Source: a bacterium HR28 (GTDB taxonomy: Bacteria > Chloroflexota > Chloroflexia > Thermomicrobiales > Thermomicrobiaceae). Taken from it: DNA of 64,000 nucleotides. The stretch covers positions 186,001 to 250,000 of the forward strand of contig BEIE01000004.1 of assembly GCA_002898255.1 (NCBI GenBank). Direction: 5' to 3'. Below the pieces are notes generated by a model, which was not told the origin of the DNA, searched no databases, and saw nothing but the letters and a program-made list of their open reading frames with translations. The position numbers and the translations under genes are program-made. Below, in pieces: positions 5,081-48,820 of this stretch (its first letter is position 1; every line of letters starts with the position of its first letter).

Positions 5081-6275
5081 GGTTCTGGTCGACCGTCTCC
5101 TCACACGTGGTACTGTCGATGTCGTCGTTCGCGAACGGCTCCGTGCCCGTCTGCTCGGTGATCGGCCGCTTCGCGTAAAGTTGGGCGTCGATCCCACACG
5201 CCCCGACATCCACCTCGGTCATTATGTCTGTTTCCGCAAGCTCCGAGAATTCCAGGCACTCGGCCACCAGGTCGTGGTCATTATTGGTGACTGGACTGCT
5301 CGCATTGGGGATCCTTCCGGCCGCTCGGCTCAGCGCCCGATGCTGACAGCGGAAGAGGTTGCTGCCAACGCACAGACGTATCTTGACCAATTCTTCAAGG
5401 TCGTCGACGTGAGCCGAGCCGAGATCGTTTGGCAAAGTACCTGGTTTGGGACATTCACGCTGGAGGACGTCATCCGACTGGCGAGCAAATACACGGTAGC
5501 CAAGCTTCTTACTCGAGAGGACTTCGCGCGACGCTATGAGCAGGGATCGCCAATCAGCATCACCGAGCTCCTATACCCGCTCCTGCAGGCCTACGACTCT
5601 GTTGCGATCCAAGCCGACGTCGAGATCGGTGGAACCGACCAGTTATTCAACCTCCTGGTCGGGCGTGACATTATGCGCGAATACGGGCTTGAGCCGCAGG
5701 ATGTGCTCACGGTTCCGCTGCTCGTCGGCACCGACGGTACCCTCAAGATGAGTAAGAGTTATGGAAATTATATCGCGGTCAATGAACCTCCCGAGGAGAT
5801 GTTCGGCAAAATCATGTCAATCCCCGATCACGTGCTCGGCGACTACCTCCGTCTCCTCACCGATCTCCCGGATGAGGAAATCGACGACATGCTCGCACGG
5901 ATGGCTGCCGGCACGCTGAATCCGCGTGACGTCAAAGAACGCCTCGCGACAATCATTGTCAGCGATCTGCACTCACCCGAAGCCGCTGCTCGTGCGCGCG
6001 ACTATTTCCATCGAGTACACCGACTCCGCGAACTTCCCGAGGAACTCCCAGAGATTGCGGTCCCAACGAGAGCTCGCGTCATCGACTACATCGTCCGCGC
6101 TGGCTTCGCGCGAACGAACAACGAAGCACGCCGCCTCGTCCTCCAAGGCGGCGTGCGTCTGGATGGACAACGGGTCGACGATCCCGAAGCGGTGCTCGAA
6201 CTGCATGAACCGATCGTACTCCAGGTGGGCAAGCGACGTTTTGCCCGCCTTGTACCCATGTTGCCGAAAGGTTGA
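5058..6275 (+). CDS. tyrS: Tyrosyl-tRNA synthetase
   Basis: Class I aminoacyl-tRNA synthetase charging tRNA-Tyr. The start ATG at 5058 overlaps ribF; 405 aa. The HIGH-like motif is IHLGH (about residues 51-55) and KMSKS is at 230-234. The Rossmann core contains the GDWTARIGDPSGRS and GGTDQLFNLLVGRD motifs of the TyrRS clade with HLGH, which is longer in the core than the E. coli type. The C-terminal S4 RNA-binding domain (about 340-402) carries NNEARRLVLQGGVRLDGQ. It ends 13 nt from the convergent alcohol dehydrogenase. Confidence 0.95.
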   Translation: MVHRSEREVLVDRLLTRGTVDVVVRERLRARLLGDRPLRVKLGVDPTRPDIHLGHYVCFRKLREFQALGHQVVVIIGDWTARIGDPSGRSAQRPMLTAEEVAANAQTYLDQFFKVVDVSRAEIVWQSTWFGTFTLEDVIRLASKYTVAKLLTREDFARRYEQGSPISITELLYPLLQAYDSVAIQADVEIGGTDQLFNLLVGRDIMREYGLEPQDVLTVPLLVGTDGTLKMSKSYGNYIAVNEPPEEMFGKIMSIPDHVLGDYLRLLTDLPDEEIDDMLARMAAGTLNPRDVKERLATIIVSDLHSPEAAARARDYFHRVHRLRELPEELPEIAVPTRARVIDYIVRAGFARTNNEARRLVLQGGVRLDGQRVDDPEAVLELHEPIVLQVGKRRFARLVPMLPKG

Positions 6276-28261: not shown

Positions 28262-28492
28262 CCTCTCGCTTCCCTGCTCGACCGCGGGAACACCCAAACA
28301 TGAGGTTTGAAACAGTATGAGGGTCCCAGTCCGGTCTTCGTACAGTCCGTAACGGGCCTCCACTCGCCCGATCGAAAGTATACCGCCGCACGCAGAAGGC
28401 CCGATTCGTGAGGTTTGCAGCGCGCCACTCCACTATGGTACAGTCGGCGCGTTCGGGAGGCGGAATGAGCGGGGTGTCGGTACGGATGAGTA
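28262..28492. other. Divergent regulatory region between purB and glmS
   Basis: No gene recognised. Contains a minus-strand TATACT (28377-28382) toward purB and a plus-strand TATGGT (28434-28439) that could be the -10 for the glmS transcript. Neither has a strong -35. Open frames here lack family resemblance. Confidence 0.4.
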
Positions 28493-28640
28493 GCGCCTGG
28501 ACTCGCTGGTGGAGGGAGCGAGTCGACGAGGTGGAGGCTCGATCGAAAGATTCGGCGGATGGCCTCCCGGCTGGCACGGTCGTCACGGTGAGAGCAAAAC
28601 CGGCGGGCGACTGCCGGGACAAAGGCTCACCGAGGTGCAC
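28493..28640 (+). ncRNA. glmS ribozyme (GlcN6P-activated self-cleaving riboswitch)
   Basis: The leader of glmS matches the conserved glmS ribozyme core in order: AGCGCC at the cleavage site (predicted between A28492 and G28493); P1 formed by GACTCGCT (28500-28507) and AGCGAGTC (28517-28524); GACGAGGTGGAGG; TTCGGCGGATGG and CCTCCCGG (28551-28570); and the 3' domain with GGTGAG (28587-28592) pairing CTCACC (28626-28631), a CCGGC/GCCGG hairpin and GGGACAAAGG. Glucosamine-6-phosphate would trigger self-cleavage and mRNA decay, so the product of GlmS shuts off its own message. The cleaved core ends about 140 nt before the glmS ATG. Confidence 0.92.
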
Positions 28641-28781
28641 CCGCTCGTAGACACCACTCATCGACAGCATATCCGCCTCACGAACGACAAGACGGTCGAG
28701 CGGATGCGGTGACCGAACCCGCACCCGCCCGCGATTGGTTGCGCTTTTCTCGGCGCACGTCCGAGGGAGGTCTTGCTGCGC

Positions 28782-30596
28782 ATGTGTGGGATCTTTGGCT
28801 TCGTCTCGACTCGCGAACTACCAGTAGCGCTGGTAGTCGACGCGTTGCGCACCCTGGAGTACCGCGGGTACGACTCTTGGGGCATCGCCTACGCGACGTC
28901 TGAACGAGGTGGCGAACGCCTCGCAGTCTTTAAGCAGGCAGGTCGTCTTCCGCAAACGCTACCACCACTGCCTACCTCACCTATTGCACTCGGTCATACA
29001 CGCTGGGCTACCCATGGCGGGGTCACAGACGAAAATGCACATCCACATCTCGATTGCAGCGCAACGCTGGCGATCGTTCACAACGGCATTATCGAGAACT
29101 ACCGACCGCTCCGCGAAGCACTTGAACAGGTCGGTCATCACTTTCGCAGTGGCACCGACAGTGAAATCTTCGCACACCTCTTAGAAGATTCACTGCAGCG
29201 CGCTCGCAGAGTGAGTGAGAGTACGTTCAGCGAACCGCCAGGTCTCTTGGTCGAAGCTGTTCGCCAGGCTTTCGCCCAAATTCGAGGATTGAATGCTTTT
29301 ATCGTCTTGCACCTCCCGTCTCGCCAACTTGTGGCGGTCAAATCCACGTCGCCGCTTGTCATCGGCATCGGCAGGGAGGGGGTCTTTGTCTCGTCGGACG
29401 CCGTGGCACTCGTCGGCCACGCTGAACAGATCTATTACCTGCGCGACGACGAAGTCGCACTGCTTTCCCCACAAGGACCTCGCTTGTTCGATCGGTGCAC
29501 CGGGGAATTGCGTCAACCGCAGTGGGAACCGCTCACGCTTCGACCCGCGGATACGTCATTGGGTGGGTTCCCACACTACCTAATCAAGGAGATCCATGAG
29601 CAACCGCATGTCATCGAGCGGATCCTACGCGAACGACTCGATGGTGCCCGTCAGCTCGCCGAGTTGATCCGGCGCTCATACGGAACCTTCCTCGTCGGCT
29701 GCGGCACCGCTGGGTATGCAGCACTGTGTGGAAGTTATCTCTTCTCCCGCATCGCTCGCCGCCACGTCAACGCAGTGATTGCTTCCGAGTTCAAGTACCA
29801 GGAGCATTTCCTCACCGACCGATCGCTTGTCATTGCGCTTACCCAAAGCGGAGAAACCGTAGACGTTATCGAGGCCGTTCAAGCAGCCAAGCGGCGCGGC
29901 GCAACAGTGGCTGCGCTGGTCAACGTCACCGGTTCCACTGTTGCCCGGCTTGCTGACTTCACGGTTCCACTCTCGGCTGGCCCTGAACAAAGCGTGCTCT
30001 CTACCAAGGCATATACCGCGAAGTTGGCGATCCTACTTCTCGTTGCCCACATCCTGAACGGAAGCGAACATGTTGGTATTGACGTGCTCTGGCGCGCCAT
30101 CGACGGTATGGAGCTCGCACTTGCTCCGGCAACCCTGGATCGTATCCGGGCAGTTGCTGAGCAGCTGGTCAATGCCGAACACTGTTATGTGATAGGGCGC
30201 GGCCTGTCGTACCCGACAGCCTTAGAGGCCGCACTGAAAATTAAAGAAGTGACGTATATTCACGCCGAAGGCTTCGCTGGTGGTGAGCTGAAGCACGGTG
30301 TCATCGCCCTGATCCAGGACGGGAGCCCATGCCTCGTTTTCTCACCACTGGATGAGACGAGACCGGACATCCTTTCGGGCGCAATGGAAGTCCGCAGCCG
30401 CGGCGGCTGGGTCGTCGGTATTTCGCCGGAACCCGACGAAGCATTTCACGTTCACATCCCAATCGCCGATGTCGGCGATGCCTCCCCCCTCGTCGCAATC
30501 GTCCCGGCACAACTCCTCGCCTACGAACTCGCTGTGCGACGTGGGCTGGATCCGGACAAGCCACGCAATCTCGCGAAAAGCGTCACCGTCAAGTGA
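28782..30596 (+). CDS. glmS: Glucosamine-fructose-6-phosphate aminotransferase (isomerising)
   Basis: Makes glucosamine-6-phosphate from fructose-6-P and glutamine. The ATG at 28782 is chosen because Cys2 of the processed enzyme must follow Met (MCGIFGFVS); 604 aa, normal length. Glutaminase domain 1-240 with RGYDSWG, GHTRWATHG and HNGIIENY; two SIS domains with GCGTAGYAAL, TQSGETVDV and STKAYTAKLA; C-terminal DKPRNLAKSVTVK. GGGAGG lies 11 nt upstream. Controlled by the ribozyme in its leader. First gene of a four-gene operon. Confidence 0.98.
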   Translation: MCGIFGFVSTRELPVALVVDALRTLEYRGYDSWGIAYATSERGGERLAVFKQAGRLPQTLPPLPTSPIALGHTRWATHGGVTDENAHPHLDCSATLAIVHNGIIENYRPLREALEQVGHHFRSGTDSEIFAHLLEDSLQRARRVSESTFSEPPGLLVEAVRQAFAQIRGLNAFIVLHLPSRQLVAVKSTSPLVIGIGREGVFVSSDAVALVGHAEQIYYLRDDEVALLSPQGPRLFDRCTGELRQPQWEPLTLRPADTSLGGFPHYLIKEIHEQPHVIERILRERLDGARQLAELIRRSYGTFLVGCGTAGYAALCGSYLFSRIARRHVNAVIASEFKYQEHFLTDRSLVIALTQSGETVDVIEAVQAAKRRGATVAALVNVTGSTVARLADFTVPLSAGPEQSVLSTKAYTAKLAILLLVAHILNGSEHVGIDVLWRAIDGMELALAPATLDRIRAVAEQLVNAEHCYVIGRGLSYPTALEAALKIKEVTYIHAEGFAGGELKHGVIALIQDGSPCLVFSPLDETRPDILSGAMEVRSRGGWVVGISPEPDEAFHVHIPIADVGDASPLVAIVPAQLLAYELAVRRGLDPDKPRNLAKSVTVK

Positions 30597-32100: not shown

Positions 32101-33417
32101 ATGAAGGACACAGGGAAACCAAACCACGGTCGTAGTCCACTCCCCCTCGTTGCCATCACGGGGACACGTGGCAAGTCCACGGTCGCCTGGCTGCTCTACC
32201 AAATGGCGCGAGCACGCCAACTCGCCACTGGTCTGTGGTGCACGAGTGGCGTATTCATGAACGGCCACCAACTCGAAGGAGAACTCCACCCATGGACAGC
32301 GATCGTGCGCGCCCTCGCGGCGGGTGAGCTCGATCTTGCGATTCAGGAACTGGAGGCACCGGTCGTCGCCTCGGTCGGACTGCCTGAGGCGAGCTACGGA
32401 TATGCGGCAATCACCACACTCTGTGGCAACGACGACGGTTGTCTCTTAGCGTCGGAGACGCGTTATGCCGCGCGCGCACACGAGATTGTGGCTCGAGCAG
32501 TGCACCCCATGGGCACCCTCGTCCTGAATGCTGACGACCCTGCAGTTCTCGAACTCGCGGAGCGCTCCGATGCCCGAATCGTCCTCTTTGGCCTTCATCC
32601 AGAAAACCCGGCGATTCGACGTTGTCGTGAGACTGGTGCCCCGGCCATCTGGTGCCGAGAGGGGGTCATTGTCGCCAATCGGGCGCTGTGGGAGATCGGT
32701 ACTCGTGCAGCTTTCCAGAGTTCACTTCGGAGCGAAAAGAGCATGTTATCGGTCGCAGCGAAGACGGCAGAAAACCATGGAGAAGCCCGGTCAGTTGACC
32801 CTCAGGAATGGGACAATGGCGCGGAAATTCCGCTTCTGGATGCTCGCGACGCACCCTGCACCTTGGGCGGTACGCTGACATTCCAGATTCAGAACGTCAT
32901 GTGCGCCGCTGCTCTCGCTCTTGCACTCGGCGTCCCCCTCACGACCATCCGTGCGGTGGCGCGTACCTTTCTCCCAAACCCAACCGTCTTACCCGGGGCA
33001 TGCAACCTCTTTACGTTGCAGGGACGAGACGTGCTCATCGACAGCGCACGCTACCCCTGGATGCTGCGTCCCCTCATTCGGGGCATTCGCCAGAGGAACC
33101 CCCGGAACACTTTCGTGATCGTTCATGACTTTCCCTGGCTGACCACTCAGGAGTTGCACGAGGTAGGTCGAATCCTCGGGAAGATCCGTGGCCTCATCAT
33201 CGTTTATGGCCCGGCATCTGAGGACCGCCTGCATGCGCTTCGCGAGGGAATTGTTCAGAACCCGATGCCGCCCGTCGTTGCCATGCAACCAAGCCTGGCT
33301 CACGCGCTTCGCTACGCGCTCAGTCTCTCGCGCAACGGTGATCTCTGCCTGATCCTCGCAGACAATGCTCTGGACGCAATTACGACACTTGAGCGATTCG
33401 AATTCGAGATCGCCTAA
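32101..33417 (+). CDS. Stand-alone Mur-ligase-like protein related to the C-terminal half of cyanophycin synthetase, apparently degenerate
   Basis: 438 aa from the ATG at 32101. The P-loop ITGTRGKSTVAWLL (residues about 19-32) is Mur-ligase/PgsB-like. Further sequence follows the CphA Mur half in order: VLNADDPAVLELAER, ENPAIRRCRETGAPAIWCREGVIV, LTFQIQNVMCAAALALALGVPL, GACNLFTLQGRDVLIDSARY, LCLILADN. Two motifs look broken: the DHLD/DHLG region reads GNDDG, and the DYAHNP motif reads DSARYP. The N-terminal ATP-grasp half of CphA is absent. An amide-ligase or ATPase role is possible, but the substrate is unknown. Last gene of the glmS operon. Confidence 0.65.
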   Translation: MKDTGKPNHGRSPLPLVAITGTRGKSTVAWLLYQMARARQLATGLWCTSGVFMNGHQLEGELHPWTAIVRALAAGELDLAIQELEAPVVASVGLPEASYGYAAITTLCGNDDGCLLASETRYAARAHEIVARAVHPMGTLVLNADDPAVLELAERSDARIVLFGLHPENPAIRRCRETGAPAIWCREGVIVANRALWEIGTRAAFQSSLRSEKSMLSVAAKTAENHGEARSVDPQEWDNGAEIPLLDARDAPCTLGGTLTFQIQNVMCAAALALALGVPLTTIRAVARTFLPNPTVLPGACNLFTLQGRDVLIDSARYPWMLRPLIRGIRQRNPRNTFVIVHDFPWLTTQELHEVGRILGKIRGLIIVYGPASEDRLHALREGIVQNPMPPVVAMQPSLAHALRYALSLSRNGDLCLILADNALDAITTLERFEFEIA

Positions 33418-48365: not shown

Positions 48366-48727
48366 GAGCGATGTCGGGCAGGGCGGTCGCTGGCGTCCGG
48401 AGAGACGCCAGAGGAAAGTCCGAGCTGCAGAGAGCAGGGTGCCTGGTGTCAAACCAGGGCAGCGGTGACCGGCGCCGCTGACAGTCCAGATCGGCACGTC
48501 GACGATTGGTCGACGTGAGAGCAACAGAGACGATGACCGGGTTTGTCCCGGGGTGAAAAGGGCAATCCTCCCCGCAGCAATCTCCGAACGGGCCGTTACC
48601 AGGTTGCTCGCCGAGGCCCGAGGTTGAGAGCAGTCGCGGAGGTGACGAAGCGACCGTCCGTGGTAATCCACGGGCGAGAGAGATGACCGCCAAGAACAGA
48701 ACTCGGCTTACTCGCCCGGCATCGCTC
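48366..48727 (+). ncRNA. rnpB: RNase P RNA, bacterial class A
   Basis: Catalytic RNA of RNase P. The conserved region CR-I GAGGAAAGTCCG is present near 48412, and the 3' core ACAGAACTCGGCTTAC near 48697. P1 is formed by a 14-bp pairing of 48366-48379 with 48714-48727 (one G-T pair), which fixes the ends. Length about 362 nt, typical of type A. It lies 32 nt after tRNA-Leu and 19 nt before tRNA-His. Confidence 0.95.
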
Positions 48728-48746
48728 ATTTCTCCATTTTTCTTGT

Positions 48747-48820
48747 GGTGCCTCTAGCTCAATTGGCAGAGCGCTGGACTGTGGATCCAGTGGTTACGGG
48801 TTCGAGCCCCGTGAGGCACC
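48747..48820 (+). tRNA. tRNA-His (anticodon GTG)
   Basis: Cloverleaf with acceptor GTGCCTC/GAGGCAC, an extra 5' G (48747) opposite C73 as expected for tRNA-His, anticodon loop CTGTGGA (anticodon GTG), T-loop GTTCGAGCC. CCA is not encoded. Confidence 0.96.

Follow-up and report, generated by a model that had tools for sequence, protein, structure and literature searches.

The window, a 64,000-nucleotide stretch of DNA from bacterium HR28, carries in the leader of its glmS gene an ordinary, well-conserved glmS ribozyme of the already known class, which is predicted from its sequence to be self-cleaving. We put at about 95% the reading that this element is a functional canonical ribozyme-riboswitch, through which glucosamine-6-phosphate (GlcN6P) would feed back on glmS by self-cleavage. 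The element very probably also belongs, as one branch, to a larger Chloroflexota family of glmS ribozymes that includes a separate, apparently undescribed subclass linked to nitrogen assimilation. In a cmscan of the window, Rfam RF00234 was matched over the full model (1–167) with 102 bits and an E value of 9.9e-23, against a gathering threshold of 37 bits. The covariance search called for by the first-pass annotation thus scored well above threshold, and its central claim, a glmS ribozyme ahead of glmS, was borne out by this match together with the TIGR01135 gene downstream (Table 1). A whole-genome search identified the match as the sole one to RF00234 in the 3.12 Mb genome. The gene opens with ATG TGT GGG at 28782; position 28781, where the element had been taken to end, is the last base before this ATG, and the ribozyme proper ends at approximately 28632–28642. 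The purB gene lies upstream of the leader in the opposite orientation.

The core motifs quoted in the first-pass annotation are all present on the plus strand in the right order: AGCGCC (28492–28497), GACGAGG (28525–28531), TTCGGCGGATGG (28551–28562), CCTCCCGG (28563–28570) and GGGACAAAGG (28616–28625). The predicted cut separates A-1 (28492) from G1 (28493), and the A/GCGCC site pairs with CGGCGG to form P2.2, leaving nucleotide 6 bulged (28492–28498 with 28554–28557; numbering and bulge from PMC7125110). P2 encloses the pseudoknot strands AUCGA (28542–28546) and CGGCGG (28553–28558) of P2.1 and P2.2, respectively. The GACGAGG strand, whose roles in P2.1 and as the source of the active-site G are taken from PMC11602151, and its AUCGA partner are invariant or nearly so in the order. 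The P3/P4 support domain (28568–28632), with a purine-rich internal loop and a GNRA loop, shows compensatory changes. The proposed 8-bp P1 was recovered, as was the GGTGAG/CTCACC pairing (28587–28592 with 28626–28631), which C28586–G28632 lengthens to a 7-bp helix. The sequence AGCGCCUGG at the cleavage site, singled out earlier as unusual, is not anomalous. The Rfam consensus at this site is AGCGCCuGaa, and the window ribozyme carries U6 and G8 in Tte numbering. In a quantitative map of the Tte core, A6U and A8G exhibited approximately 1.5-fold and 1.4-fold consensus activity, and both rescued other mutations (PMC7125110); AGCGCCUGG is a natural sequence with two individually favourable single changes.

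Table 1. Coordinates of the glmS leader features and of related ribozymes (window positions unless a locus is named).
Feature	Position	Strand	Basis or remark
Possible promoter	28414..28444 (TTTGCA 28414–28419; extended -10 TGGTACAGT 28436–28444)	+	by eye, weak
P0 5' strand (proposed)	28450..28473	+	mostly invariant in six genus members; MFE fold; shuffle p 0.005
glmS ribozyme	28481..28642	+	full RF00234 match, cmscan; unique in genome
Predicted cleavage site A-1/G1	28492..28493	+	sequence, Rfam alignment; invariant in 32 order members
P2.2 5' strand C2 G3 C4 C5, bulged U6 at 28498	28494..28498	+	pairs with 28554–28557
P1, 8 bp	28500..28524 (28500–28507 with 28517–28524)	+	sequence; compensatory changes, order alignment
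GACGAGG core strand (P2.1 5' strand, active-site G)	28525..28531	+	invariant in 32 sequences
P2	28533..28567 (28533–28538 with 28562–28567)	+	Rfam alignment; compensatory changes
P3	28568..28582 (28568–28571 with 28579–28582)	+	consensus fold of the order alignment (A1)
P4	28586..28632 (28586–28592 with 28626–28632)	+	sequence; compensatory changes in nearly all pairs
P4.1	28600–28606 with 28611–28617	+	capped by GNRA loop GCGA 28607–28610
P0 3' strands (proposed)	28640..28686	+	mostly conserved islands in otherwise variable leader; shuffles; MFE fold
glmS (glutamine--fructose-6-phosphate transaminase, 604 aa, starts MCGIFG)	28782..30596	+	TIGR01135 572.6 bits, cut-off 418
G/A4 glmS-class ribozymes ahead of glnA	L139:830–1047, L141:889–1108, L138:395–602, L213, L273, most of L343–L382		

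The ribozyme is widely kept among relatives. RF00234 was found in 54 of the 61 genomes searched of the window's order; the 28 of these that are well assembled (completeness of 90% or more, contamination of 5% or less) all have it. For the phylum Chloroflexota as a whole, 99 of 301 genomes gave a match. Aligning 32 compact ribozymes from the order (A1) showed no variation at the cleavage site or at most core positions, and RNAalifold predicted 38 pairs, 26 of which show compensatory changes, in P1, P2, P3, P4 and P4.1. It is hardly credible that the element is an inactive remnant of a glmS ribozyme, since every core nucleotide is still present, each helix is whole and shows compensatory changes among members of the order, and all good genomes searched in the order retain it. 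The GlmS protein is 97% identical to that of its nearest named relative, Thermomicrobium sp. CFH 73360, and 82–93% identical to other Thermomicrobium entries. By this measure the host is a Thermomicrobium of the Chloroflexota, and it is probably thermophilic, judging from the genus. The earlier assignment to a probably thermophilic Chloroflexota lineage was therefore right; the emphasis on Firmicutes needs softening, as the class is present in most genomes searched of the order. Compared with the RF00234 ribozymes of B. subtilis, B. anthracis and T. tengcongensis, the window element has the same core motifs, P1–P4.1 helices, double pseudoknot, GNRA loop and place ahead of glmS; it differs in its 66% GC content and in a possible extra closing helix, P0, in Thermomicrobium. 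Elsewhere in the window, a bacterial RNase P class A RNA (48371–48820; 109 bits, threshold 100) has a tRNA gene close behind it, and a 438-aa protein (32101–33417) has sub-cut-off matches to Mur ligase and cyanophycin synthetase models.

We infer GlcN6P-dependent cleavage and mRNA decay from membership in the family. The leader would fold into a doubly pseudoknotted P1–P2 core supported by P3 and P4. Accumulating GlcN6P, the product of GlmS, would bind beside G1 and act as coenzyme for the cut between A28492 and G28493, and the downstream mRNA, bearing a 5'-hydroxyl end, would be degraded, leaving less GlmS. In Bacillus, RNase J degrades glmS mRNA after ribozyme cleavage; an RNase J gene is encoded in the present genome (526 bits). 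It is improbable that the RNA binds its ligand mainly to regulate translation or transcription, by way of the 140-nt stretch separating the ribozyme from the ATG, and that cleavage is of secondary importance. This stretch (28643–28781) is long, contains or adjoins two conserved islands that pair with upstream sequence, and is partly paired in the MFE fold, but ribozymes of this family act by cleavage, the leader yielded one weak stem and no convincing terminator, and conservation of the stretch is poor beyond the islands. For the favoured self-cleaving riboswitch, the transcript may start near 28451, a by-eye reading that a strict consensus scan, which found no promoter, did not back. The possible promoter in Table 1 is largely conserved in the genus alignment. 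A short upstream ORF (ATG at 28465, SD-like GGGAGG, extending across the ribozyme as far as a stop codon at 28648) was rejected, its ATG being AGG or ACG in two Thermomicrobiales loci (L006 and L004).

The feature new for the window is P0, in which the start of the leader can, by complementarity, pair with sequence just beyond the ribozyme. The inner pairing joins GAGCGGG (28467–28473) to CCCGCTC (28640–28646), the middle pairing GAGGCGGA (28457–28464) to TCCGCCTC (28672–28679), and the outer pairing CGTTCG (28450–28455) to CGAACG (28681–28686). The MFE fold of 28450–28800 contains P0. Total duplex energy of the flanks is uninformative in GC-rich sequence, and by it the window is not significant; we therefore used a gapped-helix score tested against shuffles. 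By this score the window reached p 0.005, and p 0.01 with dinucleotide shuffles. Five of seven members of the genus Thermomicrobium, which are related and hence non-independent samples, had p ≤0.04; the score was not significant in the members L004 and L015. In an alignment of the leader across the genus (A2), the paired strands stand out as largely conserved islands amid variable sequence. We lean towards a role for this pairing in Thermomicrobium. It is a tenable, if less favoured, alternative that P0 is a chance product of a GC-rich, purine-rich leader and has no role, as GC-rich flanks yield strong duplexes randomly and the signal is weak elsewhere in the order (Fisher p 0.006, from related samples). 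The shuffle results, the conservation of the paired islands amid variable surroundings and a separate upstream-strand helix with species-specific complementarity in relatives argue against chance. If the transcript starts near 28451, P0, which probably forms in the Thermomicrobium leader, would cover the 5' end of the uncut mRNA, and cleavage would part this end from the coding part.

The compact glmS ribozymes of other Thermomicrobiales (L002–L030) have the same architecture and gene context as the window element and different helix sequences; among them, P0 is clearly supported only in Thermomicrobium. Following up weak matches from the scan of the phylum revealed a long type, in which two additional hairpins stand between P2 and AUCGA. 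A model built from long-type ribozymes (R1) matched 180 of 298 genomes of the class of genome G348, with glmS downstream of 57 of 60 sampled matches. Second R1 matches in the same genomes are mostly not ahead of glmS, and in the family of G348 a match was observed in 53 of 61 genomes, most of which have two. With R1, neither the genome of the window nor its relatives gave a second ribozyme. In Deinococcus-Thermus, McCown and colleagues reportedly described glmS ribozymes with extra stems in the core in 2011; the Chloroflexota long type likewise has two extra hairpins at this place, whereas the window element is of the compact type and lacks them. In the long type (L138–L287), a helix joins bases at approximately -11 to -6, ahead of the cut, to sequence that follows P3. 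Across 71 thinned sequences, this helix scored 16.95 with its own partners and 13.40 ± 0.30 with permuted partners (p 0.0002), and 50 of the 71 scored at least 15, compared with 30% of mismatched partners. The compact window type uses a different pairing, P0. Two glmS-linked ribozymes in genomes of one genus (L138:2480–2648 and L143:2634–2784) apparently have no P4 domain. In L138, ribozyme, glnA, ribozyme and glmS also follow one another in tandem, and a T-box match (5155–5373) lies below threshold.

Many relatives precede nitrogen-assimilation genes. The ribozyme lies directly ahead of glutamine synthetase in L138, L139, L141, L213 and L273, the last being the only ribozyme match of its genome. 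In eight loci (L214, L215, L217–L220, L222 and L223) it is followed by an Ada/AraC-like gene, an EamA exporter and then glnA; L216 and L224 share the Ada/AraC-EamA context and end before glnA would be reached. Glutamate synthase genes are a rarer context (L291, L294 and L374). For 40 further matches, mostly second copies, the first recognised gene is glnA in 28, Ada/AraC in five, glutamate synthase in one and glmS in three, and the remaining three have none of the tested genes. Other contexts were also observed. In L293, a C4-type ribozyme lies ahead of an FAD/Fe-S oxidoreductase gene in a run ending with a glutamine synthetase-like gene (named by eye). Ribozymes of three genomes (L288, L289 and L290) precede a DegT/DnrJ/EryC1 aminotransferase and a Gfo/Idh-like dehydrogenase. 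A ribozyme-like RNA in L292 (748–3039) precedes a fusion of a YvcK/CofD-like domain with a phosphohexomutase, and the glnA-type ribozymes of L356 and L357, which have none of the tested genes downstream in their own orientation, may be stand-alone elements.

Gene context is mirrored at nucleotide 4. Among 221 distinct ribozymes, C4 copies precede glmS in 159 cases and nitrogen-assimilation query genes in three (L291, L293 and L294), and G/A4 copies precede nitrogen-assimilation genes in 47 cases and glmS in none, with three more lacking a gene assignment; because the sequences come mainly from two families, this split may reflect one old duplication kept since. Nucleotide 36 is not G in 23 nitrogen-linked copies, compared with one glmS-linked copy. 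A U-to-A change in CGGAUG was discarded as a mark of the glnA subclass, as many glmS-linked copies share it, and an unknown match at L026 in the typing looks like a parsing artefact. Nucleotides 4–6 and 53 covary, CCN occurring with G53 and CAU, GCU or ACU with A53, a pattern consistent with a GCU:AGC P2.2 in which the bulge lies instead at position 5 or 4. Such bulge shifts were proposed from mutant rescue, with the postulated structures stated as still to be verified (PMC7125110).

The G/A4 copies apparently constitute an undescribed sister group of the glmS ribozyme ahead of glutamine synthetase genes. The subclass includes the loci with an Ada/AraC-like regulator gene and an EamA exporter as well as those with glnA immediately downstream, and one case with glutamate synthase. 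All 50 nitrogen-linked copies keep A-1, GCG, ACGAGG, AUCG and GCGG, and the subclass is probably self-cleaving because its catalytic core is intact; it likely provides self-cleaving control of glutamine supply. The ligand would be GlcN6P or a related amine. GlcN6P, a classical feedback inhibitor of E. coli glutamine synthetase, is favoured because of this inhibition, which makes the same ligand sensible, and because the core is intact. A response of the glnA-linked relatives to a different amine would account for the clean split at nucleotide 4 and the partial split at nucleotide 36, the pattern expected for variants of altered specificity. This alternative is nonetheless the less likely one, given the motifs kept in every nitrogen-linked copy, the E. 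coli feedback, and the inference that a bulge-shifted P2.2 cleaves better with GlcN6P than a mismatched one in the Tte core (PMC7125110).

The window itself offers a GC-rich, probably heat-stable natural glmS ribozyme with U6 and G8 that could serve structural and stability studies, and its relatives supply natural sequences consistent with the bulge-shifted P2.2 proposed in PMC7125110. No paper linking a glmS ribozyme to glnA was found among the titles and abstracts searched; in the 2011 study of McCown and colleagues, all glmS ribozymes but two reportedly lie in glmS mRNAs. Glutamine synthetase supplies GlmS with its nitrogen donor, and the relatives suggest that control of this enzyme has been taken on by a ribozyme otherwise known almost exclusively from glmS mRNAs.
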